Shown here one piece after another: positions 4,606 to 54,306 of a DNA stretch of 64,000 bases. The DNA is from an uncultured Atopobiaceae bacterium (GTDB lineage: Bacteria; Actinomycetota; Coriobacteriia; Coriobacteriales; Atopobiaceae), in assembly GCA_947625405.1 (NCBI GenBank), contig CANQOF010000001.1, forward strand, positions 1-64,000, given 5' to 3'. The first letter of the stretch is position 1. The number at the start of each line of letters is the position of its first letter. Position numbers and translations under genes: made by a program. The notes under the pieces are model-generated. The model saw only the letters and a program-made list of their open reading frames with translations. It did not search any database and had not been told where the DNA came from.

Positions 4606-5367
4606 ATGGATAAGCGGCTCGCGGAATCCACCCTCCACCTCACGGGCACCTACGACCGTCGCGCCCTGCGCAAGGCGTATGCCCGTGAGGCGAGGAAGTG
4701 GCATCCCGACCTCCAGCCCACGGAAAACGCCCGCTTTTCCGCCACGAAGCACATGGCGAGGATCAACGAGTCCTACTCGTATCTGAAATCGCTCTTCGAC
4801 GCGGGCGCGAAGACCCTCACGGCAAGCTCCGGCACGGGATCGGCCTACGCGCCTCGGAGCGGCTATTCGGTCTATTCGGGCTCGTCGGGCGCTCGGCGCG
4901 GCTCCGCGGGCCCTCGGACGACCTATGGCGCGAGGGGATCCACCGGAGCGCCTCCGCGGCCGCCCGTGGCCGTCCGCAACGAGCCCGCGGGGGCGCCGGT
5001 GGCTCCCGAGCCAGCGCCTGAGCCGGATCCTCCCTTTCGCCACTGCCTCGCATTTCGGCTGGTGGAGCACTTCCCCTGGAGGGTCTTCTTCCTCGCGGTC
5101 GTCCTCCTGCTCTTCATCTCCCCCGCCCATGCGGGGCTCGACTACCTCACGCACTTCGGGAGCTTCCAATTCGTGCTGCTCTACCAAGGGGGATTCCTCG
5201 ATTTCCTCCTTTGGCAGTGCCTGCTCGTGCCCCTGGCCATTTGGAACCTCTTCACGGGCACCATCACGAATCTCATCCAGCTCCTGCTCCTCGAGCTCAT
5301 CGCCTGGGCCGAGAGGCTCGTCCACCGCCTGCGCGCGCAATCACCCCGTTCGAGCACGCTATCCTGA
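4606..5367 (+). CDS. J-domain protein with C-terminal membrane segments
   Basis: I take the ATG at 4606 as start (253 aa); a GTG four codons earlier is possible and neither has a strong Shine-Dalgarno. Residues 10-70 look like a DnaJ J domain: helix II ALRKAYAREARKW, then the HPD tripeptide and a helix III with INESYSYLKSLF. A Ser/Gly/Ala/Pro/Arg linker of about 80 residues follows. The last about 120 residues hold strongly hydrophobic segments (FFLAVVLLLFIS, FVLLYQGGFLDFLLW, NLIQLLLLELIAW). There is no Gly/Phe zinc-finger region, so this is not DnaJ itself. It is probably a membrane-tethered Hsp70 co-chaperone. Its client is unknown. Confidence 0.75.
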   Translation: MDKRLAESTLHLTGTYDRRALRKAYAREARKWHPDLQPTENARFSATKHMARINESYSYLKSLFDAGAKTLTASSGTGSAYAPRSGYSVYSGSSGARRGSAGPRTTYGARGSTGAPPRPPVAVRNEPAGAPVAPEPAPEPDPPFRHCLAFRLVEHFPWRVFFLAVVLLLFISPAHAGLDYLTHFGSFQFVLLYQGGFLDFLLWQCLLVPLAIWNLFTGTITNLIQLLLLELIAWAERLVHRLRAQSPRSSTLS

Positions 5368-5411
5368 GCCGCGTACGATCCACATCCGCACCCCGCGCAC
5401 TAGGAGGACCC

Positions 5412-6077
5412 ATGGGAACCACCCAGCGCTTGATCGACGCGTCGATGGACGTGTGGAACCACTATCTCGAGCACCCCTTCATCCTCGGCATCCAAGACGG
5501 CACCCTCGACAGGACCCGCTTTCTCGATTACATCCTCCAGGACTACCTCTACATCCGTGAGTACACGCGCGTCTTCTCCATCGGCATCGCGAAGGCGAGG
5601 TCGAACGAGATCATGCGCCTCTTCACGGAGTACGTGGCCATGCTCGTGAAGTACGAGCTCGACACCCAAACCGGCTACATCGCCGATTGCGGGCTCTCCG
5701 AGGAGGCCGTGGAGGCCATCGAGCTCGCCCTCCCGAACCGCTCCTACACGTCCTACATGCTGAAGGTGGCCTACGAGGAGGGCGAGGCGGAGATCCTCAC
5801 CGCGCTCATGCCCTGCGCGCTCACCTACGAGTGGATCGCGCGAAAGATCCTCGAGGCCAACCCCGCCGCGGGCGAGCACGACTACTTCGGCACGTGGGTG
5901 AGTTCCTACGCAAACGACTACCACGACTACAACGTCGAGCTCACCGACGCCCTCGACGCGCTCACCGCGCACTACACCGAGCGCCAGCTCGCGCACCTCG
6001 AGGAGATCTTCGTGGCGTGCTCGCGCTATGAGCTCGGCTTCTGGGACATGGCCTGGCAAGGCCGAAGCGCCTGGTAG
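5412..6077 (+). CDS. tenA: TenA/THI-4 family protein (aminopyrimidine aminohydrolase-like)
   Basis: The start at 5412 follows a TAGGAGG-type Shine-Dalgarno and gives 221 residues, the usual family length. It is an all-helical TenA-type protein. Asp44 in LQDYLY and Cys135 in MPCALTYEW fall exactly where the catalytic Asp44 and Cys135 of Bacillus TenA lie. Glu207 in RYELGFWDMAW matches the C-terminal catalytic glutamate. Family members hydrolyse aminomethyl-hydroxymethyl-pyrimidine salvage intermediates of thiamine. No thiamine gene or TPP riboswitch is nearby, so the substrate here is inferred from family membership. It is convergent with proB. Confidence 0.9.
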   Translation: MGTTQRLIDASMDVWNHYLEHPFILGIQDGTLDRTRFLDYILQDYLYIREYTRVFSIGIAKARSNEIMRLFTEYVAMLVKYELDTQTGYIADCGLSEEAVEAIELALPNRSYTSYMLKVAYEEGEAEILTALMPCALTYEWIARKILEANPAAGEHDYFGTWVSSYANDYHDYNVELTDALDALTAHYTERQLAHLEEIFVACSRYELGFWDMAWQGRSAW

Positions 6078-6098
6078 GCGCCGCGCCGCCCCGAGGTC

Positions 6099-7226
6099 CT
6101 AGAACACGAGGAGCTCGTCTCGATGCACCGCGGGCGCGTCCGCCTTCTCGGGGAGGAAGCGCCCGATCACGTCGAGCTTGAGGCCGCGCGCCTTTGAGAG
6201 CTCGCTCGCGCTATAGCGTGAGACGCCACGCGCGATGAGGTGGCCCTCGGGATTGACGATGGAGACCACGTCGCCCGACGCGAAATCCCCGCGCACCTCG
6301 CGCACGCCCACCGGAAGGAGCGATGCGCCCCTCTCCACGAGCGCGCGTGCCGCCCCGTCATCGACGACGATCGTGCCTTTCGGAAGGCCGGCGAGTGCGA
6401 TCCAGAGCTTTCGCGCCGGCTCGCGGTTCTCCTCGCTTGGCGCGAAGAGCGTGCCGCGCACCTCGCCTCGCACCGCCGCGCTGAGGGCGCCGGGATCGCT
6501 TCCCGAGACGATCGCCATGGGAATGCCCGCCGCCATGAGCGCCCGCGCCGCATGGAGCTTCGAGCGCATGCCGCCGGTGCCGATCGCGGAGGCGCTGCCT
6601 CCCGCAAGCGCGAGGATGCGCTCGTCGATGGCCTCGATGCGATCGATGCGCTCGGCCGCCGAATCGCGCGTGGGATCCGCCGTGTAGAGGCCGTCGATGT
6701 CGGTGAGGATCACGTAGCGCTCCGCTCCCACGAGCGTGGCCACGATGGCGCCGAGGAGATCGTTGTCGCCGAACGAGAACTCCGTCACGCTCGTTGTGTC
6801 GTTCTCGTTCACCACGGCCACCACGCCAAGCTCAAGGAGACGCTCGAAGGTATGGCGAATGTGCAGGTAGCTCTCGCGATTGACCACATCGCGACGATTG
6901 AGGAGCACCTGTGCGCACGGAAGATCGAATTGCGCGAGCTCGCGAGCGTAGGCCTCCGTGAGCGCGGCCTGGCCCGCGGCCGCGGCCGCCTGCAGCCCCG
7001 GGATGTCGCGGGGGCGCTCCGAGAGGCCAAGGCGTCCCATGCCCACGGCGACCGCACCCGACGACACGATGATGGGCCGCCAGCCCTCGGCGGCGATCTT
7101 GGCGGCCTCGGAGGCGATGGCGACCACGCGTGCCGGATCGAAGGCGGCGCGCTCGTCCACGAGGGAGGAACTCCCCACCTTGCACACGATCACATGGTCG
7201 AGGTAGTCGGGATGTCGCTCGCTCAC
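6099..7226 (-). CDS. proB: Glutamate 5-kinase
   Basis: This 375-residue protein phosphorylates glutamate in the first step of proline synthesis. The amino-acid kinase fold is shown by VCKVGSSSLVD, IIVSSGAVAVGMGRLG, VVNENDTTSV and GTGGMRSKLHAA. A C-terminal PUA domain (about residues 285-365, with FASGDVVSIVN) gives the full-length form. The start is a GTG at 7226 that overlaps the obg stop codon as GTGA, implying translational coupling. An obg-proB order is common in Actinomycetota and many Firmicutes. proA is not in the window. Confidence 0.96.
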   Translation of the reverse strand: MSERHPDYLDHVIVCKVGSSSLVDERAAFDPARVVAIASEAAKIAAEGWRPIIVSSGAVAVGMGRLGLSERPRDIPGLQAAAAAGQAALTEAYARELAQFDLPCAQVLLNRRDVVNRESYLHIRHTFERLLELGVVAVVNENDTTSVTEFSFGDNDLLGAIVATLVGAERYVILTDIDGLYTADPTRDSAAERIDRIEAIDERILALAGGSASAIGTGGMRSKLHAARALMAAGIPMAIVSGSDPGALSAAVRGEVRGTLFAPSEENREPARKLWIALAGLPKGTIVVDDGAARALVERGASLLPVGVREVRGDFASGDVVSIVNPEGHLIARGVSRYSASELSKARGLKLDVIGRFLPEKADAPAVHRDELLVF

Positions 7227-8614
7227 ACGCCCTCCCCCTCGTCGAGTTCCTCGAGATCGGCGGGCCCCACGTAATCGAAGGCGATGTCGAGGATCTTCAC
7301 CTCGTCGCCGTTTTTGGCGTCCGCGTCGGCGAGGGCGTCGTCTATCCCGATCCTCGCGAAACGGCTCTGGAGGTAGGCGACCGCCTCCTCGTTATCCCAA
7401 TCCGTCTGCACCACCCAGCGCTCGATGGTCTCGCCGGAAAGGCGCCAGCCATCTTCCTCGCGCTCAAGCGCGAAGGGCGCGTCGTCCTTCTTCGCGGTGC
7501 CGCGCCACACCTGCTCGTAGGGGCTCTCCGTGGCGGCGAGTGCCTCCGCGCGAAGCGCGCGCTCTTCGAAGACGAGCGCGCCGAGTGCCTGCTTGAGGGC
7601 GCCGATCCCCTCTCCCGTGAGCGCCGAGACCGCGAAGAAGGGGCGCCCCAGCTCCCCCGCTCGCTCGCGTACGCGCGCCACGGCCTGCGCGGTGTCGGGC
7701 ATGTCCACCTTGTTGGCCACGATCACCTGCGGACGAAGCGCGAGCTCGGGATCATAGGTGGCGAGCTCGGAATCGATGATGGCGAGATCCTCCACCGGGT
7801 CGCGCCCCTCGAAGTCTCCCGTGGCGTCCACCACGTGCACGATCACCGAGCAGCGCTCGATGTGGCGAAGGAAGTCGTGCCCGAGGCCACGACCGTCCGC
7901 CGCGCCCTCGATGAGGCCGGGCACGTCGGCGACCACGTAGTCGTAGTCATCCGTGCGCACCGCGCCCAGGCTCGGAACGAGGGTGGTGAAGGGGTAGTTC
8001 GCCACCTTCGGGCGCGCCTTGCTCATCGCCGCCACGAGGGAGGACTTCCCCACCGACGGCATCCCCACGAGCGCCGCGTCGGCCATGAGCTTCATCTCGA
8101 GCTCGATCCATAGCTCCCTGCCTGGCTCTCCTCGCTCTGCAAAGCCGGGCGCGCGCCGCACGCTCGTCACGAAATGGGGGTTGCCGTATCCGCCCTTGCC
8201 CCCCTTGGCCACGATGAGACGCTCGCCCGCGCGCGTGAGATCTCCGAGCTCGAAGACCGGCTCCATCGTCTGCGCGTCAAGCGCGCGCACCTGCGTGCCG
8301 AGGGGCACGGGAAGGATCAAGTCCTCGCCGTCCTTGCCGTGCTTTCGCGCGCCTTGGCCATGCGTGCCCCTCTCCGCGGCGAAATGGTGCTTATAGCGGT
8401 AATCCACGAGTGACGACTTCTGGGGATCTGCCACGAGTACGACCGAGCCGCCGTCGCCGCCGTCGCCGCCGTCGGGACCCCCTTTGGGCACATGCGCCTC
8501 GCGGCGAAACGAGAGGCAACCGGCGCCCCCGTCACCCGCCCTCACGTGGATATGCACTCTGTCGGTGAAATCGGCCAGCTCACTCACCTCTTCGCCTCGG
8601 AGGATGTTCGCCAT
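7223..8614 (-). CDS. obg: GTPase Obg/CgtA
   Basis: 463 residues from the ATG at 8614 (MANILRGEEV). The protein has the glycine-rich Obg fold (residues 10-170, with GDGGAGCLSFRRE and PDGGDGGDGGSV). Its G domain contains GMPSVGKSSL, DVPGLIEGA and NKVDMPD, and it has a C-terminal OCT domain of about 70 residues. The longer frame upstream has no family similarity and is not used. Obg is an essential GTPase of late 50S assembly and stress signalling. It heads an obg-proB transcript and lies back to back with sdaA, with 60 bases between the starts, so both promoters are packed there. Confidence 0.97.
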   Translation of the reverse strand: MANILRGEEVSELADFTDRVHIHVRAGDGGAGCLSFRREAHVPKGGPDGGDGGDGGSVVLVADPQKSSLVDYRYKHHFAAERGTHGQGARKHGKDGEDLILPVPLGTQVRALDAQTMEPVFELGDLTRAGERLIVAKGGKGGYGNPHFVTSVRRAPGFAERGEPGRELWIELEMKLMADAALVGMPSVGKSSLVAAMSKARPKVANYPFTTLVPSLGAVRTDDYDYVVADVPGLIEGAADGRGLGHDFLRHIERCSVIVHVVDATGDFEGRDPVEDLAIIDSELATYDPELALRPQVIVANKVDMPDTAQAVARVRERAGELGRPFFAVSALTGEGIGALKQALGALVFEERALRAEALAATESPYEQVWRGTAKKDDAPFALEREEDGWRLSGETIERWVVQTDWDNEEAVAYLQSRFARIGIDDALADADAKNGDEVKILDIAFDYVGPADLEELDEGEGV

Positions 8615-42708: not shown

Positions 42709-44148
42709 ATGCCCAAGTCCTATGAGGCGTTTCGCTCGTGGATCCTCTCTCGCGTGATCGATGGCTGCACCATCGAGGCGAAGGGCGATGACGAGATCGT
42801 CCTTTCCACGGACGCCGCCGAAGCGAAGGTGACGTTCTACAAGGTGGACGACACGCAGCCGCGCATCGTGGAGTTCCTCATCCAACGCGCGCACCGCGAG
42901 AACTCCGAGCCGATCTTCCACCTCCATTTCGAGCTCACCGACCTCCCTCGCGCCCATGAGCTCTTCGAGGAGATGCTCGAGGTGCTCCTCGAGCAGGGCT
43001 CCCGCAAGACCGAGACGGTGCTTCTCTGCTGCACGACCGGCCTCACGACGATGATGTTCGCCGAGAAGCTCAGCGTCACCGCCACCTCGCTTTCGCTTGG
43101 CTACACCTTCGTGGCGAAGCCCCTCGAGGAGGCCCTGGAAGAACATGGCACCTACGCGGCCGTGATGCTCGCGCCGCAGGTGGGCTACCTGCGCAAGAAG
43201 GTGGCCGAATCCTTCCCCGCCACGCCCGTCTTCGAGATTCCCGCCAAGATCTACGGTGCCTACGACGCCGCGGGCACGATCCGCCTCCTCCTCGACGCCC
43301 TCGACGCCACCACGCCCGACGCGCCCGACCTCCGCATCGTGCGAAAGGTGCTGAGCGACAAGCGCGTGCTCGTGATCTTCGTGAACCTGCACACGAACCG
43401 CACCACCATCCGCTATCGGCTCTATGAGGACAACGAGGTGAAGGCCTCCGGACGCGTTGCCAAGCGCCACGTGGACTTCCGCGACGTGAGCGATCTGCTC
43501 GTTTCGTTGCGCTCGTCGGGAATTGACGCGGGGGCGGTGGACTCGGTGGGGATCGTCGTACCGGGAGTCGTGGACGGGCTCGTCGCGACGTTCCCTCCCG
43601 ATTCAGATACCACCTACGACTTCGCCGAGATCCTCGAGCAATACCCGGACGCGCGCGTCTTCGTGGAAAACGACGCGAACGCGGCGGCGGTGGGCTGCTA
43701 CGCCTCGCAGAAGCTCTACGAAAACGTGTCGCTCTACCAGCAGCAGGCGGGACACGAGACCGGCGCCGCGGGCACGGTGATCGATGGGAGGCTCGTGAAG
43801 GGCCATCGAGGCTTTGCGGGCGAAGTCGGCATCGTCCAATCGCTTTGGCCCATCGACATCGACACCGACGACCTGCGATGGAGCCCGGAGGCCGCACTCA
43901 AAACCGCCTCCGCCCACGTGGTGGCCGCGAGCTGCATTGCGGCACCAGACGCGTTCTACCTCTCCTGCGATCTCGTGCCCGACATGGACGCCCTCAAAAG
44001 GGAGGTGGCCGAGCATCTCCCCGAGAAGTTCGTGCCCGACCTCATCAAGCTCGATGACCTTCGCGAAGCCATATTCACGGGCATGCTCGCCCTCTGCCTC
44101 CAGCGCCTCGAGGCGGAAACCATGTTGGTGGAGGCCCCGGAAGGCTAG
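42709..44148 (+). CDS. Protein with EIIB-like domain and ROK sugar-kinase fold
   Basis: 479 residues; ATG at 42709 behind AGGAGG. Residues 1-100 are an unassigned alpha/beta segment. Residues 102-168 resemble the lactose/cellobiose-type PTS EIIB: TVLLCCTTGLTTMMFAEKLS, with Cys108 at the phosphocysteine position, and AAVMLAPQVGYLRKKV, the usual D.ILLGPQ.-like strand. From about 218 to the end is a ROK fold: VGIVVPGVVDG, VFVENDANAAAVGCYAS, TGAAGTVIDGRLVKGHRGFAGEVGI. The ROK zinc-binding CxC motif is not seen. No helix-turn-helix is obvious. It could be a sugar sensor or a kinase whose activity is tied to PTS phosphorylation; function is unproved. Convergent with the next gene, sharing CTAG. Confidence 0.78.
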   Translation: MPKSYEAFRSWILSRVIDGCTIEAKGDDEIVLSTDAAEAKVTFYKVDDTQPRIVEFLIQRAHRENSEPIFHLHFELTDLPRAHELFEEMLEVLLEQGSRKTETVLLCCTTGLTTMMFAEKLSVTATSLSLGYTFVAKPLEEALEEHGTYAAVMLAPQVGYLRKKVAESFPATPVFEIPAKIYGAYDAAGTIRLLLDALDATTPDAPDLRIVRKVLSDKRVLVIFVNLHTNRTTIRYRLYEDNEVKASGRVAKRHVDFRDVSDLLVSLRSSGIDAGAVDSVGIVVPGVVDGLVATFPPDSDTTYDFAEILEQYPDARVFVENDANAAAVGCYASQKLYENVSLYQQQAGHETGAAGTVIDGRLVKGHRGFAGEVGIVQSLWPIDIDTDDLRWSPEAALKTASAHVVAASCIAAPDAFYLSCDLVPDMDALKREVAEHLPEKFVPDLIKLDDLREAIFTGMLALCLQRLEAETMLVEAPEG

Positions 44149-45080
44149 CGTCCGGCGTCCGCCTCGCTTGTCTTTTCCGTCGGCCGCATGAGCACGCTCA
44201 CGTCCGCGACCTCGGGGAATCGCTCTTCGAGGAGCTTTTCCGCCGATCGCGCGATCTCGTGCGCCTCGCGCAGGGTCATCTCGGGGTCGAGCAACACGTG
44301 GAGATCCACGTAGACCTCGCCCTCCGTGCCGCGGCTTCGCACCTCATCCACCCCCGCGACTCCGGCGACGCCCTCCACGACCTCGGCGACTTTGCCCGCG
44401 TCCAAGCGCGAGACGTCGGCGAGCGTGCGGTTTGCCTCGCGGAAGATGGAGATCGCCGAGGCGAGGACCGCAAGCGCGACGATGAGGGAGACGAGCGCGT
44501 CAGCCGCTGGATAGCCAAGTTGCACGAAGATGAGGGAGCAGATGACGGAGACCGACACGTAGACATCGGTCCAGGTGTGCTTGGCATCGGCGGTGAGCGA
44601 TTCGGAGCGCAGCTCGCGGCCCCACCGGCCCTCCCACCAGGCGACCCAGATGTTCAGCGCCATGGTGCCGAGCATGATCACGTAACTCGCCCAATCCACC
44701 ATCACATGGCTTCCGCCCTCGAGAAGCGAGGTGATGGCCTCGCGCGCGATGTCGCCCGCCGCGATGATGAGGATGACGCCGATCGCCACCGACGCGTAGG
44801 TCTCGTACTTCGCGTGGCCATAGGGGTGTTTCTCAGAGGGTGGCCGGCTCGCGATGGAGACCCCGGCGAGGCCTATCAGCGTGGAGCCGGCATCGAGGAA
44901 GCTCGCAATGCCGTCGTTGGTCATGGACATGGAGCCGGTGACGGTGCCGTAGACGAACTTGAAGACGGCAACGACCACGTTCAGCGCGAAGCCGATCCAG
45001 AGGATACGTTTGAGCGTGCGCGCCCGCCCTGCGGCATCGACGCGCGCCGTCGCCGTATTCGCGTTCCGAGTGTTTGCCAC
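44145..45080 (-). CDS. Cation diffusion facilitator transporter 1
   Basis: The GTG at 45080 is preferred because GGGAGG lies 4 bases upstream; a GTG six codons earlier has poorer spacing. 311 residues, six predicted transmembrane helices (IGFALNVVVAVFKFVYG, SMTNDGIASFLDAGSTLIGLAG). HPYGHAKYET and DAKHTWTDVYVS hold the HxxxD metal-site residues, and there is a C-terminal cytoplasmic domain with EVYVDLHVLLDPEMTLREAHEIA. It exports divalent metal (Zn, Mn, Fe or Co) in exchange for protons; the specific metal cannot be read off. It is a clear paralogue of the gene at 46228-47160. Confidence 0.93.
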   Translation of the reverse strand: MANTRNANTATARVDAAGRARTLKRILWIGFALNVVVAVFKFVYGTVTGSMSMTNDGIASFLDAGSTLIGLAGVSIASRPPSEKHPYGHAKYETYASVAIGVILIIAAGDIAREAITSLLEGGSHVMVDWASYVIMLGTMALNIWVAWWEGRWGRELRSESLTADAKHTWTDVYVSVSVICSLIFVQLGYPAADALVSLIVALAVLASAISIFREANRTLADVSRLDAGKVAEVVEGVAGVAGVDEVRSRGTEGEVYVDLHVLLDPEMTLREAHEIARSAEKLLEERFPEVADVSVLMRPTEKTSEADAGR

Positions 45081-45146
45081 CGCGCCTCCCGCCGCCACTG
45101 CCTCTGCCGGGCTTGTACCCCGAAGGCGGCGCTTAGACGACGATCG

Positions 45147-46184
45147 CTACGGGGTGACGATGACCTTGATGCTTTCCGGACCCTCCTGCGTGAGGATGGC
45201 CTCTTCGAGCTCGTCGATGCCGAAGCGATGCGTGATGAGCTTCGAGACGTCCACCAGTCCAAAGTCCAGCAGGTTCACCGCCCTTTGATGCGTGTCGGGA
45301 TTGATCCTCGAACCGAAGATGCTGAGCTCCTTGGCGTAGACGTCAAAGAGCGGCAGCTCAACCGTGGCATCCACCTGCGGCACGCTGAAGAGCACCACCC
45401 GGCCGCACGGCCCCGCCGCATCGATGGCCTGGCGCACCGCGCGCGGATTGCCCACGCATTCGATGACCACGTCGGCACCGTCCGTCCCGCAGATCTCGCT
45501 CACGGAAGCCAGGAGATCCTCGTGCACGGGGTCGATCGCGAAGTCCGCGCCGAGATCGAGCCCCACCTCGCGGCGAAGCTTCACCGGCTCGGAGAGGATG
45601 ACGCTTGAGGCGCCGGAGGCCTGCGCGAGTTGGCACATCATCTGCCCGAGCGTGCCGCCACCAATCACGAGCACGTTCTCGCCAGAGCGAATCTCCGCGC
45701 GATCGATGCCGTGGATCGCGCAGGCGAGTGGCTCCACCATCGCCGCCGATTCAAAGCTGAGGTCCTTGGAGACCGGATAGCACTGGGCATCCGGGCAGAG
45801 GGCCACCTCGGCGAAGCCGCCGTTCACGTTCACGCCGAGCGCGAAGAGGTGCTCGCAGCACTGCTTCTTCCCCATGCGGCACGGCCGACATCTCCCGCAG
45901 TAGATGTTCGGATCGAGCGTCACGTGATCCCCCGGTGTCACGACATCCACCTCGGAGCCCACCCGCAGCACGCGCCCGGAGAACTCGTGCCCGAGCACCA
46001 CGGGAGGCGTCACGTCCGCCGAGCCCTTCTCGCCGTGGTAGATGTGCACGTCGGTGCCGCATACGCCACACGCCCTCACCTCGACGAGTACGTCATGGGG
46101 TCCGAGCTCGCCGAACTCCATCTCGCGCACCTCGAAGACAGGATCCGACTCCGCCCCAAGGAAAAACGCTCCCTCTGCCTTCAT
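45147..46184 (-). CDS. Zinc-dependent medium-chain alcohol dehydrogenase
   Basis: The ATG at 46184 (MKAEGAFFLG) sits behind GGAGGAGG; 345 residues. Catalytic zinc ligands are in RACGVCGTDVHIYHG and LGHEFSG, with the structural zinc in IYCGRCRPCRMGKKQCC. The NAD-binding loop is VLVIGGGTLGQMMCQLA. It belongs to the sorbitol/threonine dehydrogenase branch, with polyol or amino-alcohol substrates likely. It lies between the two cation transporter genes on the same strand. Confidence 0.9.
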   Translation of the reverse strand: MKAEGAFFLGAESDPVFEVREMEFGELGPHDVLVEVRACGVCGTDVHIYHGEKGSADVTPPVVLGHEFSGRVLRVGSEVDVVTPGDHVTLDPNIYCGRCRPCRMGKKQCCEHLFALGVNVNGGFAEVALCPDAQCYPVSKDLSFESAAMVEPLACAIHGIDRAEIRSGENVLVIGGGTLGQMMCQLAQASGASSVILSEPVKLRREVGLDLGADFAIDPVHEDLLASVSEICGTDGADVVIECVGNPRAVRQAIDAAGPCGRVVLFSVPQVDATVELPLFDVYAKELSIFGSRINPDTHQRAVNLLDFGLVDVSKLITHRFGIDELEEAILTQEGPESIKVIVTP

Positions 46185-46227
46185 GGGTGCCTCCTCCATG
46201 CACTCGCGCACGCGAACGCCTCAGACT

Positions 46228-47160
46228 CTACTCCTCACGCGACGCACCGGGCCCGATCGTCTCCCTGCGCTCTTGCGGCACATCCGGCTCCATGTGCACC
46301 ACCACATCCGCCACTTCGGGGTACACCTGCGTGATCACCCGCTCCACCTCGGTGGCCTTCTCGTGGGCATCGAGGAGCGTCATCGTGGGATCGAGCAGGA
46401 TGTGGAGGTCCACATAGACCTCGCCCTCGCTCCCCCGGCTTCGCACCTCGTGCACGGAGCACACGCCCTGCACCGTCTCCACCAGGCGCGCGACTTCTGC
46501 GCTGTTCAGTCGCGAGGCATCCCCAAGGGTGCGCGAGGCCTGGCGGAAGATGGATATCGCCGAGGCGAGCACCGCGAGCGCCACGAGGAGCGAGACGACG
46601 GCGTCCGCCGCGGTGATGCCGAGCTGCACGAAGATGAGCGAGCAGATCACGGAGATCGACACGTAGGCGTCCGAGCGCGTGTGCTTGGCGTCTGCCGCGA
46701 GCACCTCGCTCTTCAGCCGCGCGCCCTGCCTCGCCTCCCAGAAGGAGACGCCGAGGTTCACCACGAGCGTACCCGCCATGATGGCGTAACTCACCCAGTC
46801 CACGAGGATGGCGCTCTCGCCCGCCACCAACGTCGAAATCGCCTTGGTGGCGATCTCGCCCGCCGCGACGAGAAGCGCCACGCCGATGGCCGCCGACGCG
46901 TACGTCTCGTATTTCGCGTGGCCATAGGGGTGCGAGGCATCAGGGGGTTTCGAGGCGATGCGCACCCCGAGGAGCCCCACGAGATTTGAAACGCCATCGA
47001 AGAAGCTCGCGATGCCGTCGTTGGCCATGGCCATGGAGCCCGAGAACGTGCCCCAGCCAAACTTCGCGAGCGCCACTAGCACGTTGAGCCCGAGGATGGC
47101 CCAGAGGATCCTCTGGACCTCCCCATAGCGAGCCGTAGTGCCTCGTGGCGCGTGTTCCAT
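46228..47160 (-). CDS. Cation diffusion facilitator transporter 2
   Basis: 310 residues, with the same architecture as the paralogue at 44145-45080: six helices, MANDGIASFFDGVSNLVGLLG, HPYGHAKYET, DAKHTRSDAYVS and EVYVDLHILLDPTMTLLDAHEKA. Identity between the two is high along the whole length, notably in the cytoplasmic domain RSRG.EGEVYVDLH.LLDP.MTL. It starts 3 bases after the sbcC stop, so it is probably translated from the same transcript as sbcDC. Duplication followed by insertion or retention of the dehydrogenase between the copies is the simplest history. Confidence 0.93.
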   Translation of the reverse strand: MEHAPRGTTARYGEVQRILWAILGLNVLVALAKFGWGTFSGSMAMANDGIASFFDGVSNLVGLLGVRIASKPPDASHPYGHAKYETYASAAIGVALLVAAGEIATKAISTLVAGESAILVDWVSYAIMAGTLVVNLGVSFWEARQGARLKSEVLAADAKHTRSDAYVSISVICSLIFVQLGITAADAVVSLLVALAVLASAISIFRQASRTLGDASRLNSAEVARLVETVQGVCSVHEVRSRGSEGEVYVDLHILLDPTMTLLDAHEKATEVERVITQVYPEVADVVVHMEPDVPQERRETIGPGASREE

Positions 47161-51154: not shown

Positions 51155-51361
51155 CTCGCGCTCCTCGATCGCACGCGAGGCAGCCACGCGCCTCGCCCTT
51201 GCCCTTGCCTTGCCGAGATAGTGAACCACACAAGCCCAACAACAATTACGGACTACGAAACCGCAGGTAGCCTGCTAGCCGGGCGGTCCGGCACTCAAGC
51301 CCACATTGATCGGCGACGCTCGAGTGCGCACGCGCGGGAGCCGCCATACCCCGTCGATAGG

Positions 51362-51484
51362 ATGGAGGCGGAGGTCAGAGACGAGCTCCACGTGAGCGAG
51401 ATCGCGGCCATTTCCACTGTGCTCAAGCACGTGATCGACCACCAGCGCGAATCCGCGATCGAAGACGGCGCTCCCCAAAAGTAG
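51362..51484 (+). CDS. Possible small protein (40 aa)
   Basis: ATG at 51362, sequence starting MEAEVRDELHVSEIAAISTV and ending DGAPQK. It is acidic at both ends with a probable amphipathic helix in the middle. There is no good Shine-Dalgarno at normal spacing, which weakens the case. In its favour is a strong terminator 16 bases after the stop, which otherwise has no gene to serve, because sbcD points the other way. The gene is unrecognised. Confidence 0.4.
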   Translation: MEAEVRDELHVSEIAAISTVLKHVIDHQRESAIEDGAPQK

Positions 51485-51499
51485 GCGTCGCTTCGGCCC

Positions 51500-51540
51500 A
51501 AGGCCAAAAGGGCCGCTCGAAAACGGTTGGCCTTCTTTTT
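51500..51540 (+). terminator. Rho-independent terminator
   Basis: AAGGCCAA (51500-51507) pairs with TTGGCCTT (51527-51534), and CTTTTT follows. An alternative GGCCC/GGGCC pairing overlaps the left arm. Confidence 0.75.
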
Positions 51541-51550
51541 GCGACGGGGT

Positions 51551-51621
51551 AAGTTGAAGGTGCAACTTGGCGCACCTTGATCCCTCGGCTCGGTTAGAAT
51601 GCGCGAGGTTGAAATATCAAC
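51551..51621 (+). promoter_or_regulatory. Cluster of palindromes and -10 box before the ADH-ALDH fusion
   Basis: AAGTTG-6-CAACTT (51551-51568) overlaps AAGGTGC-8-GCACCTT (51557-51578). GTTGA-AATA-TCAAC (51608-51621) follows. A TAGAAT -10 box lies at 51595-51600 between them. The arms GTTGA and AAGTTG share the core GTTG, so one regulator could bind both sides of the promoter. Confidence 0.5.
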
Positions 51622-51684
51622 TAGCGAAACCAGCTCCAAAGACCGCGCGCACGTCCGAAACCGCTCCCCCGGAGGTCCCACCCC

Positions 51685-54306
51685 ATGAACCCAGTTGAAA
51701 GCGCTTATTGCCGCACGTTCCAGACGGGGCTTGCGGCTTCCATCCCCGTGCTTCCCTATCATCGCCCCGAGGTCCTGCATTCGGTGGATGACGTTCCCGA
51801 GGTGTTGCGCAAGGAAGGCGCCAAGCGGCCGCTTATCGTCACGGATCCGGGGGTTTTCGAGCTCGAGGGCACCAAGGAGCTCATCTCCGCCATCAATGAC
51901 ATCGGCATCGGCTGTGCGATCTTCACCGATGTGCGCGCCAATCCCACCACGGAAACGGTCGAGGCGGCCTACGAGTTCTACAAGGCCGAGGGCTGCGATG
52001 CGATCGTGGCCGTGGGCGGCGGTTCGTCGATCGACTGCGCGAAGGGCGTGGGCATCCGCGTCGCTCGCCCCGGCACGCCGCTTTCCAAGCTCGCGGGCAT
52101 CCTCAAGGTCATCCACCCGCTCCCCCTCCTCATCGCCATTCCCACCACCGCCGGCACGGGCTCCGAGGTCACGCTTGCCGCCGTCATCGTGGACGCGCGC
52201 ACGCGCCACAAGTACGCCATCAACGACTTCCCGCTCATCCCCCGCTACGCCGTGCTCGACCCCGAGATGACGAGGACGCTCCCGCCCTCGCTCACCGCCA
52301 CGACTGGCCTCGACGCCCTCACGCACGCCGTGGAGGCCTATATCGGGAACTCCACCACGAAGCAGACGCGCGAGGACGCGCTCAACGCCGTGCGCCTCAT
52401 CTTCGAAAACCTCGTGGAGAGCTACGAGCACCCGGCGGACCTCGAGGCGAGGCGCGCCATGCTCGAGGCCGCCTACCTCGCGGGATGCGCGTTCACCGTG
52501 TCCTACGTGGGCTACGTGCACGCGGTGGCCCATGCGCTCGGAGGCGCCTACGACGTCCCGCATGGCTACGCGAACGCGGTCGTCTTGCCCCTCATGCTCG
52601 AGATTTACGGCGACGCGATCGACGATAAGATGAAGGATCTCGCCATCGCCGCGGGCCTCGCGAACGAGGCCACGCCTCCCGCGGCGGCGAGGGAGCGCTT
52701 CATCTCGGCCATCGTGGAGATGAAGGTGCGCTTCGGCATCCCCGACACCTTCCCCGAGATCCGTCGCGCCGACATCCCCCAACTCTCGCAGTGGGCCGCC
52801 GCCGAGGCGAACCCGCTCTATCCCGTGCCCGTGCTCATGGACGCCCACGAGCTCTCGCACGTGTTCCGCTCGCTCATGGCGCCCAACGAGGAGCCGCGTG
52901 AGCACGAGGCTCCCACGGACTCCACGACACGCGCGGAGGAGATCTCCGAGATCGTCTCGCGCCAGAGGGCGTGGTTCGCCGAACGTCGCACGCTCGAGCT
53001 CGGCTTTCGCAAGCGCGCCCTCGAGCAGCTCGAGCATGCGATCCTCGAGCACGAGCAGGACATCTACGCGGCGCTCGGGGCGGACCTCTCGAAGAGCCGA
53101 TTCGAGAGCTACATGTGCGAGGTGGGGCTCGTGCTTTCCGAGCTCCACTATCAGCAGCGCCATCTCGTGGGAAACATGGCCGACAAGCTCGCCTGGACTC
53201 CCCTCGCGCAGACGGCGTCCGTCTCCTACACCACGCGCTCGCCCTTTGGCGTGACGCTCATCATGAGCCCGTGGAACTATCCCTTCCTCCTCACGATGGA
53301 CCCGCTCGTGGATGCCATCGCCGCGGGGAACTGCTGCGTGGTGAAGCCGAGCGCCTACTCCCCCGCCACGAGCGCCATCATCGAGAAGATGATCTCCGAG
53401 GCCTTCGGGCCCGAGCACGTGACCTGCGTCACCGGCGGCCGCAAGCAGAACAAAGCGCTTCTCGACGAGCCCTTCGACCTCGTGTTCTTCACGGGGAGCC
53501 AGGCCGTGGGCAAGGAGGTGCTGCGCCACGCCGCGGAGCGCCTCACGCCCGCGGTCCTCGAGCTCGGTGGCAAGAGCCCCTGCATCGTGGAGCGCACGGC
53601 CAACGTGGCCCTCGCCGCGCGCCGCATCGTCTGGGGCAAGTTCCTGAACTCCGGGCAAACGTGCGTGGCACCGGACTACCTCCTCGTCGACCGCGAGATC
53701 GAGGGTCGCCTTATCGACGAGATCCAAGGCGAGATCTGCCGCCAGTTCGGAGCGAACCCGCTCGAGGATCCCGATCTCGTGGCGATCGTGAATAACAAGC
53801 ATTACGAGCGGCTTCTCGGCCTCATCGACCCCATGAAGGTCATCATCGGCGGCGAGGCCGTGGCCGCGGAGCGAAAGATCGCCCCCACGGTGATGCGCGG
53901 CGTCACGTGGGACGACGCGTGCATGGGAGAGGAGATCTTCGGCCCCATCTTGCCGATCATCGCCTACGACGACCTCGACGAGGTCCTCGCCGAAGTGGAC
54001 GCGCGTCCGCACCCCCTCGCCTTCTACTTCTTCAGCGAGGATCCCGTGCTCTCGCACAAGGTGATGCGCGAGCACCAATTCGGCGGCGGCTGCGTGAACG
54101 ACGTCGTGATCCATCTCGCCACCTCGTCCATGCCCTTCGGGGGCGTGGGCGCGAGCGGCATGGGCTCCTACCACGGTAAACGTGGCTACGAGACCTTCAC
54201 CCACGAGAAGAGCGTCGTGAACAAGCTCACGTGGATGGATCTGCCGCTTCGCTACCAGCCTTATCGCGAGCTCTCAGAAAAGCTCGTGCGTCTCTTCGTG
54301 CGCTGA
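51685..54306 (+). CDS. Iron alcohol dehydrogenase-aldehyde dehydrogenase fusion (reverse of AdhE order)
   Basis: 873 residues. Residues 1-410 form an iron-dependent alcohol dehydrogenase: AVGGGSSIDCAKGVGI, PTTAGTGSEVT, metal residues in TGLDALTHAVEAYIG and HAVAHALGGAYDVPHGYANA. Residues 415-873 are a full aldehyde dehydrogenase of the class 3 (non-CoA) kind: SPWNYPFLLTMDPL, FTGSQAVGKEVL, Glu626 in LELGGKSP, nucleophile Cys660 in NSGQTCVAPDY, and SMPFGGVGASGMGSYHGK. AdhE has ALDH first and a CoA-acylating type; here both order and type differ. A predicted two-step oxidation or reduction between alcohol and acid could be channelled. The joint region is hydrophilic (EEPREHEAPTDSTTR), and I see no frameshift. 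Confidence 0.93.
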   Translation: MNPVESAYCRTFQTGLAASIPVLPYHRPEVLHSVDDVPEVLRKEGAKRPLIVTDPGVFELEGTKELISAINDIGIGCAIFTDVRANPTTETVEAAYEFYKAEGCDAIVAVGGGSSIDCAKGVGIRVARPGTPLSKLAGILKVIHPLPLLIAIPTTAGTGSEVTLAAVIVDARTRHKYAINDFPLIPRYAVLDPEMTRTLPPSLTATTGLDALTHAVEAYIGNSTTKQTREDALNAVRLIFENLVESYEHPADLEARRAMLEAAYLAGCAFTVSYVGYVHAVAHALGGAYDVPHGYANAVVLPLMLEIYGDAIDDKMKDLAIAAGLANEATPPAAARERFISAIVEMKVRFGIPDTFPEIRRADIPQLSQWAAAEANPLYPVPVLMDAHELSHVFRSLMAPNEEPREHEAPTDSTTRAEEISEIVSRQRAWFAERRTLELGFRKRALEQLEHAILEHEQDIYAALGADLSKSRFESYMCEVGLVLSELHYQQRHLVGNMADKLAWTPLAQTASVSYTTRSPFGVTLIMSPWNYPFLLTMDPLVDAIAAGNCCVVKPSAYSPATSAIIEKMISEAFGPEHVTCVTGGRKQNKALLDEPFDLVFFTGSQAVGKEVLRHAAERLTPAVLELGGKSPCIVERTANVALAARRIVWGKFLNSGQTCVAPDYLLVDREIEGRLIDEIQGEICRQFGANPLEDPDLVAIVNNKHYERLLGLIDPMKVIIGGEAVAAERKIAPTVMRGVTWDDACMGEEIFGPILPIIAYDDLDEVLAEVDARPHPLAFYFFSEDPVLSHKVMREHQFGGGCVNDVVIHLATSSMPFGGVGASGMGSYHGKRGYETFTHEKSVVNKLTWMDLPLRYQPYRELSEKLVRLFVR

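Follow-up and report, generated by a model that had tools for sequence, protein, structure and literature searches.

The gene at positions 51685-54306 of the window (the whole stretch of 64,000 nucleotides analysed here, from an uncultured Atopobiaceae bacterium) joins an iron-containing alcohol dehydrogenase (ADH) to a class-3 aldehyde dehydrogenase (ALDH) in a single chain. With a probability of about 0.6, we consider the product to be a membrane-associated, two-headed fatty-aldehyde enzyme that would turn aldehyde into alcohol on one head and into acid on the other, the pair having been tied originally to plasmalogen turnover. Both catalytic heads belong to known families. The novelty lies in their pairing, and most of all in the repeated joining of this pair to a lysoplasmalogenase of the YhhN family, which is seen in related Clostridia.

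ORF reading of the window gives an uninterrupted frame of 873 codons followed by a stop on the plus strand, with a ribosome-binding site (GGAGG, 51671-51675, +) that can be read directly 9 nt ahead of the ATG. Pfam places Fe-ADH at residues 33-193 (E 5e-44), ADH_Fe_C at residues 204-396 (E 7e-41) and Aldedh at residues 415-844 (E 4e-85). The ADH thus spans residues 33-396 (51781-52872, +; PF00465, PF25137; also supported by a fold match) and the ALDH residues 415-844 (52927-54216, +; PF00171), an ADH-first order, reverse to that of AdhE, as the original prediction had it. The standard Fe-ADH fold is preceded by an N-terminal helix (residues 1-27, 51685-51765, +) with a YCRxFQ...PxLPY motif. 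The two domains are separated by a disordered linker (residues 397-414, 52873-52926, +), and the C-terminal tail (54217-54303, +) has a short amphipathic helix at residues 862-872, RYQPYRELSEKLVRLFVR, according to the model and moment calculation. The structure prediction, built on 46 relatives, has a mean pLDDT of 87.8 and contains two well-formed domains, a helix at residues 3-22, a C-terminal helix and a loose linker at about 402-410 (pLDDT <50). A long antisense ORF (51295-54204) was taken to be a shadow ORF of GC-rich coding DNA. Elsewhere in the window (44145-47160) there are two similar cation-efflux-type membrane proteins of 317 and 310 aa on the minus strand, between which sits a zinc-type alcohol dehydrogenase-like gene (45147-46211, -).

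On searching the model with Foldseek, the best PDB matches by fold were class-3 ALDHs and iron ADHs. By sequence, the closest matches of the ADH half are 1,3-propanediol oxidoreductase and methanol dehydrogenase. This half is about 30-36% identical to the B. methanolicus methanol dehydrogenase, 1,3-propanediol oxidoreductase and FucO and shares their metal ligands, but differs from them in that the fusion adds the N-terminal helix and the ALDH. By homology with FucO-type ADH the predicted ligands are D210 (52312-52314), H214 (52324-52326), H279 (52519-52521) and H293 (52561-52563), all on the plus strand and each conserved in 88 of the 89 aligned relatives; on the domain match and these four predicted ligands the half is classed as an iron-containing ADH. 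D54, the residue that determines NAD use in ADHs of the FucO type, is invariant in this alignment as well. The ALDH half is nearest, both in sequence and in fold, to S. aureus AldH (6k0z), ALDH3A1 (3sza) and the human fatty aldehyde dehydrogenase ALDH3A2 (4qgk). It is 39-43% identical to them in the fold alignment and has the same catalytic residues, but differs from them in being fused to an ADH and in having an Ala in place of the Glu after KPS. N531, the general base E626 (53560-53562, +) and the catalytic C660 (53662-53664, +) are present in 89 of 89 relatives; together with the nearest relatives in sequence and fold, this bears out the earlier assignment to a class-3-type, non-acylating ALDH with Cys and Glu intact. 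This half is closest to the fatty-aldehyde-type class 3 enzymes, and long-chain activity is predicted for it. The changed residue, A557 (53353-53355, +; KPSA for KPSE), occupies the site of the NAD-ribose-binding Glu of other ALDHs; it is Ala in 81 of the 89 relatives and may make the ALDH half tolerant of NADP.

AdhE likewise has an iron ADH and an ALDH-superfamily domain in one chain of about 870 aa, but in the opposite order and with a CoA-acylating ALDH, and the fusion reaches only 255 bits against the PRK13805 cut-off of 951. The two are therefore distinct, as had been proposed. A separate AdhE-type protein of 879 aa with the usual order is encoded on another contig of the window genome. 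The best NCBIfam scores were those of MdlD benzaldehyde dehydrogenase (NF045701, 425 against a curated cut-off of 550), the regulatory ADH ErcA (NF041833, 302 against 550) and lactaldehyde reductase (286 against 523). Such matches would suit an aromatic or short-chain aldehyde enzyme with no lipid role, acting from benzyl alcohol to benzoate or in propanediol or fucose fermentation. Yet all three scores lie far under their cut-offs, none of the recurrent neighbours was recognised as a gene for aromatic or propanediol metabolism or for a microcompartment, and YhhN would be left unexplained; we regard this role as improbable.

The fusion occurs in all six genomes of the genus (four complete copies and two truncated by contig ends), and the named relatives at 76-91% identity are uncultured Atopobiaceae with the sample label 'Lapin'. 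Compared with three congeners, the ADH half has a dN/dS of 0.12-0.27 and the ALDH half one of 0.13-0.36. Both halves are under purifying selection, and the linker evolves fast and is loosely constrained. Presence throughout the genus, together with these dN/dS values, rules out an assembly error or frameshift artefact. The original prediction would have been overturned by related strains with two genes separated by a frameshift; none were seen, as the split relatives have normal genes with their own starts, and in the genus of the window the fusion is fixed.

Such split pairs, with ADH always first, were found as adjacent genes at about 60 clostridial loci (Lachnospiraceae, Oscillospiraceae and others) and also in three genomes of the same family as the window (G056, G058 and G059), their spacing ranging from small overlaps (4 bp being common) to a few tens of bases. 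It may be noted that a survey table had given the impression of a fusion throughout Lachnospiraceae, and that ORF reading showed two adjacent genes there. In trees built from the ADH half alone and from the two halves combined, the genus of the window groups with a split pair from Oscillospiraceae (support 95/93 and 96). Vertical inheritance from the split operon that G056, G058 and G059 carry is rejected by the tree and by the AU test (p 0.003). A single origin of all fusions is rejected too (p 1e-7, with G381/L166 excluded from the test as a very long branch), and even without this further fused lineage the trees call for four or more fusions. Since the split operons have the order ADH-ALDH and fusion has happened repeatedly, the domains stand the other way round from AdhE because the internal stop of an operon was lost on several occasions. 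The order is thus historical, a copy of the pre-existing operon, and the 'reverse AdhE' layout requires no special mechanism.

The link to YhhN comes from the Clostridia. In one uncultured clade (L030) the fused protein has 220-230 extra N-terminal residues that form a membrane domain recognised as YhhN by Pfam (E about 1e-23). We surveyed 248 genomes of that clostridial order and then read the loci. A second, separate YhhN-ADH-ALDH fusion is present in G353/L164, and at L161 a YhhN-ADH fusion is followed by a separate ALDH gene. YhhN-ADH with no ALDH attached is found at L162 and L163, separate genes in the order ADH-ALDH-YhhN at L034, L178 and L179, ADH followed by YhhN at L167, and ADH-ALDH fusions lacking YhhN at L165 and L166. 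One genome of the L030 clade, labelled Mycoplasmataceae (L042), reads TGA as a codon, and its YhhN-ADH-ALDH protein (5323-8592) is full length only under code 4. In an alignment read by eye, the five putative active-site residues of YhhN (K, D, H, D and Y, named in PMC9052158) are apparently kept in the fused domains, whose function is assigned by homology and would be that of a lysoplasmalogenase. YhhN/TMEM86 is thus a fused domain or operon partner in relatives, but YhhN was not found in the window genome or its genus, nor around the pair at about 60 loci of Lachnospiraceae, in which the only gene often found nearby encodes a MarR regulator.

Most family members begin with an amphipathic, cationic helix (mean moment 0.45 against 0.27 in shuffles, charge +3.7). 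In the three-domain proteins this helix would come immediately after the final membrane helix of YhhN, a placement suited to a substrate in the membrane, and contact of the fusion with the membrane is suggested by it. In the genus of the window the same helix is weak and neutral (moment 0.22, charge 0); its loss of positive charge and the absence of YhhN from this genus are evidence against the fatty-aldehyde reading, as is the lack of YhhN around the Lachnospiraceae pairs.

Other arrangements were noticed while the loci were read. Four loci from two phyla (L031, 762-2015; L100, upstream of ADH; L038; L040) have a gene for a choloylglycine-hydrolase/NAAA-like amidase (PF02275) immediately ahead of the ADH-ALDH fusion or gene pair. 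At L170 (3809-6559, -) an iron ADH of the family is preceded in frame by about 510 aa with, as judged by eye, GtrA-like membrane and PfkB-like kinase parts, possibly another fusion. Also, the Atopobiaceae genus g35 has a protein of about 930-980 aa with an apparent signal peptide, a class-3 lipase domain and a C-terminal YhhN (L123, 3430-6231, -; L124, 3725-6547, -; L125, 1579-4389, +; L126, 3545-6475, -; L127, 2046-4697, +). Lipase_3 was confirmed in L125 and a GFSRA motif is present in the other loci; the protein is likely a cell-surface phospholipase fused to a lysoplasmalogenase.

Plasmalogen synthesis in anaerobes became known only recently (plsA/plsR). The pls genes have been reported in Coriobacteriales (PMC9702350), and the window genome has a PlsA-like protein with BadF and DUF2229 domains, its gene truncated by a contig end; DUF2229 is a mere proxy for PlsA. 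It was matched in 3 of the 6 genomes of the genus and in 130 of 140 Atopobiaceae genomes. Its co-occurrence with the pair is therefore uninformative inside this family, and PlsA-like genes being near universal there show only that endogenous plasmalogens are plausible. In the clostridial order, DUF2229 accompanies the pair more often than expected: 12 of 18 pair-bearing genomes, chosen by eye among the matches listed, have it, compared with 66 of the other 230 (Fisher p 0.002, a value that ignores kinship). It was not matched in several YhhN-ADH genomes (G300, G287, G312, G357, G377 and G388), where the lipid may therefore come from other organisms or YhhN may have a different substrate; this tells against the plasmalogen reading.

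The YhhN proteins of humans, Legionella and Mycobacterium are lysoplasmalogenases, which cut the vinyl ether of lysoplasmalogen to give a fatty aldehyde and glycerophospho-ethanolamine or -choline (PMC9052158). The laboratory assay adds an NADH-dependent alcohol dehydrogenase to reduce this aldehyde (PMC9052158), the same coupling as is made by the YhhN-ADH fusions. In mammals, plasmalogen-derived aldehydes are oxidised by fatty aldehyde dehydrogenase (PMC9471318), a class-3 ALDH and among the closest structural relatives of the C-terminal half. The mammalian route (TMEM86, fatty aldehyde dehydrogenase and fatty alcohol oxidation) shares the logic of vinyl-ether cleavage followed by a class-3 ALDH (PMC9471318), but it uses separate proteins, and the bacterial ADH is of the iron type; the assembly is convergent. 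Our literature searches returned nothing relevant on an ADH-first fusion or on YhhN with ADH, and nothing on plasmalogen breakdown, or on handling of the released reactive aldehydes, in gut anaerobes.

The recurrent YhhN link, including YhhN-ADH without ALDH, suggests that what the two halves share is an aldehyde, supplied from outside and able to leave as alcohol or acid. The Fe-ADH half would use NAD(H) to interconvert long-chain aldehydes and alcohols, and in a fermenting anaerobe it would most likely run towards reduction of the aldehyde; the class-3 ALDH half would oxidise the same aldehyde irreversibly to free fatty acid. The original job of the pair would be to dispose of, or recover, the fatty aldehydes freed when YhhN cleaves the vinyl-ether bond of a (lyso)plasmalogen.

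The original prediction was of direct conversion between alcohol and acid, with aldehyde passed between the active sites. Its acid-to-alcohol direction is unlikely on general biochemical grounds, because free acids are not normally reduced by non-acylating ALDHs. The opposite direction, in which a primary alcohol (fatty or shorter) is oxidised to acid and the aldehyde is handed from the ADH site to the ALDH site, is possible, though we rate it unlikely. Two intact, joined active sites, the common oxidative pairing of ADH with ALDH and the invariant D54 all speak for it, and in mammals fatty alcohol:NAD oxidoreductase activity depends on fatty aldehyde dehydrogenase. But the YhhN-ADH proteins that have no fused ALDH seem to take in aldehyde rather than alcohol, oxidation through to the acid would burden a fermenting anaerobe with two reduced cofactors for each alcohol, and the loose, fast-evolving linker lends no support to a fixed channel. 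The comparative evidence favours the aldehyde-centred lipid enzyme.

A redox-neutral dismutase, in which the ALDH oxidises one aldehyde while the ADH reduces another from a common nicotinamide pool and short, aromatic or fatty aldehydes are detoxified, overlaps this preferred reading but, unlike it, would need one cofactor common to both halves and products in a 1:1 ratio. In its favour, aldehyde is a substrate of both halves, and their fusion would link the two reactions. The genes are also preceded by a regulator of the MarR type, a family whose members often sense small lipophilic or phenolic compounds, in 24 loci and in 7 loci of another set, which shares some members with the first. However, the cofactors may differ (D54 pointing to NAD and Ala 557 perhaps to NADP), and the loop would then need transhydrogenation. 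We hold strict dismutation to be somewhat unlikely.

Returning to the two-headed fatty-aldehyde enzyme, some Clostridia would have the entire route in one protein, YhhN-ADH-ALDH, whereas in the genus of the window an ADH-ALDH operon related to the clostridial ones would have become a two-domain fusion without YhhN. The aldehyde must therefore have another source there, which may be plasmalogen cleaved spontaneously or in some other way, the diet, or neighbouring organisms. We give about even odds to the fuller proposal that gut Clostridia own a one-protein plasmalogen-catabolic enzyme, in which the aldehyde from YhhN would go to a tethered iron ADH (alcohol) and class-3 ALDH (fatty acid), and that the fusion in the window is an offshoot which lost, or never had, YhhN. 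The YhhN linkage hints at a plasmalogen-breakdown pathway that would be new for anaerobes. Repeated, independent fusion of ADH and ALDH with a lysoplasmalogenase is a strong pointer to this missing route, and the YhhN-ADH-ALDH proteins make it directly testable in purified form.
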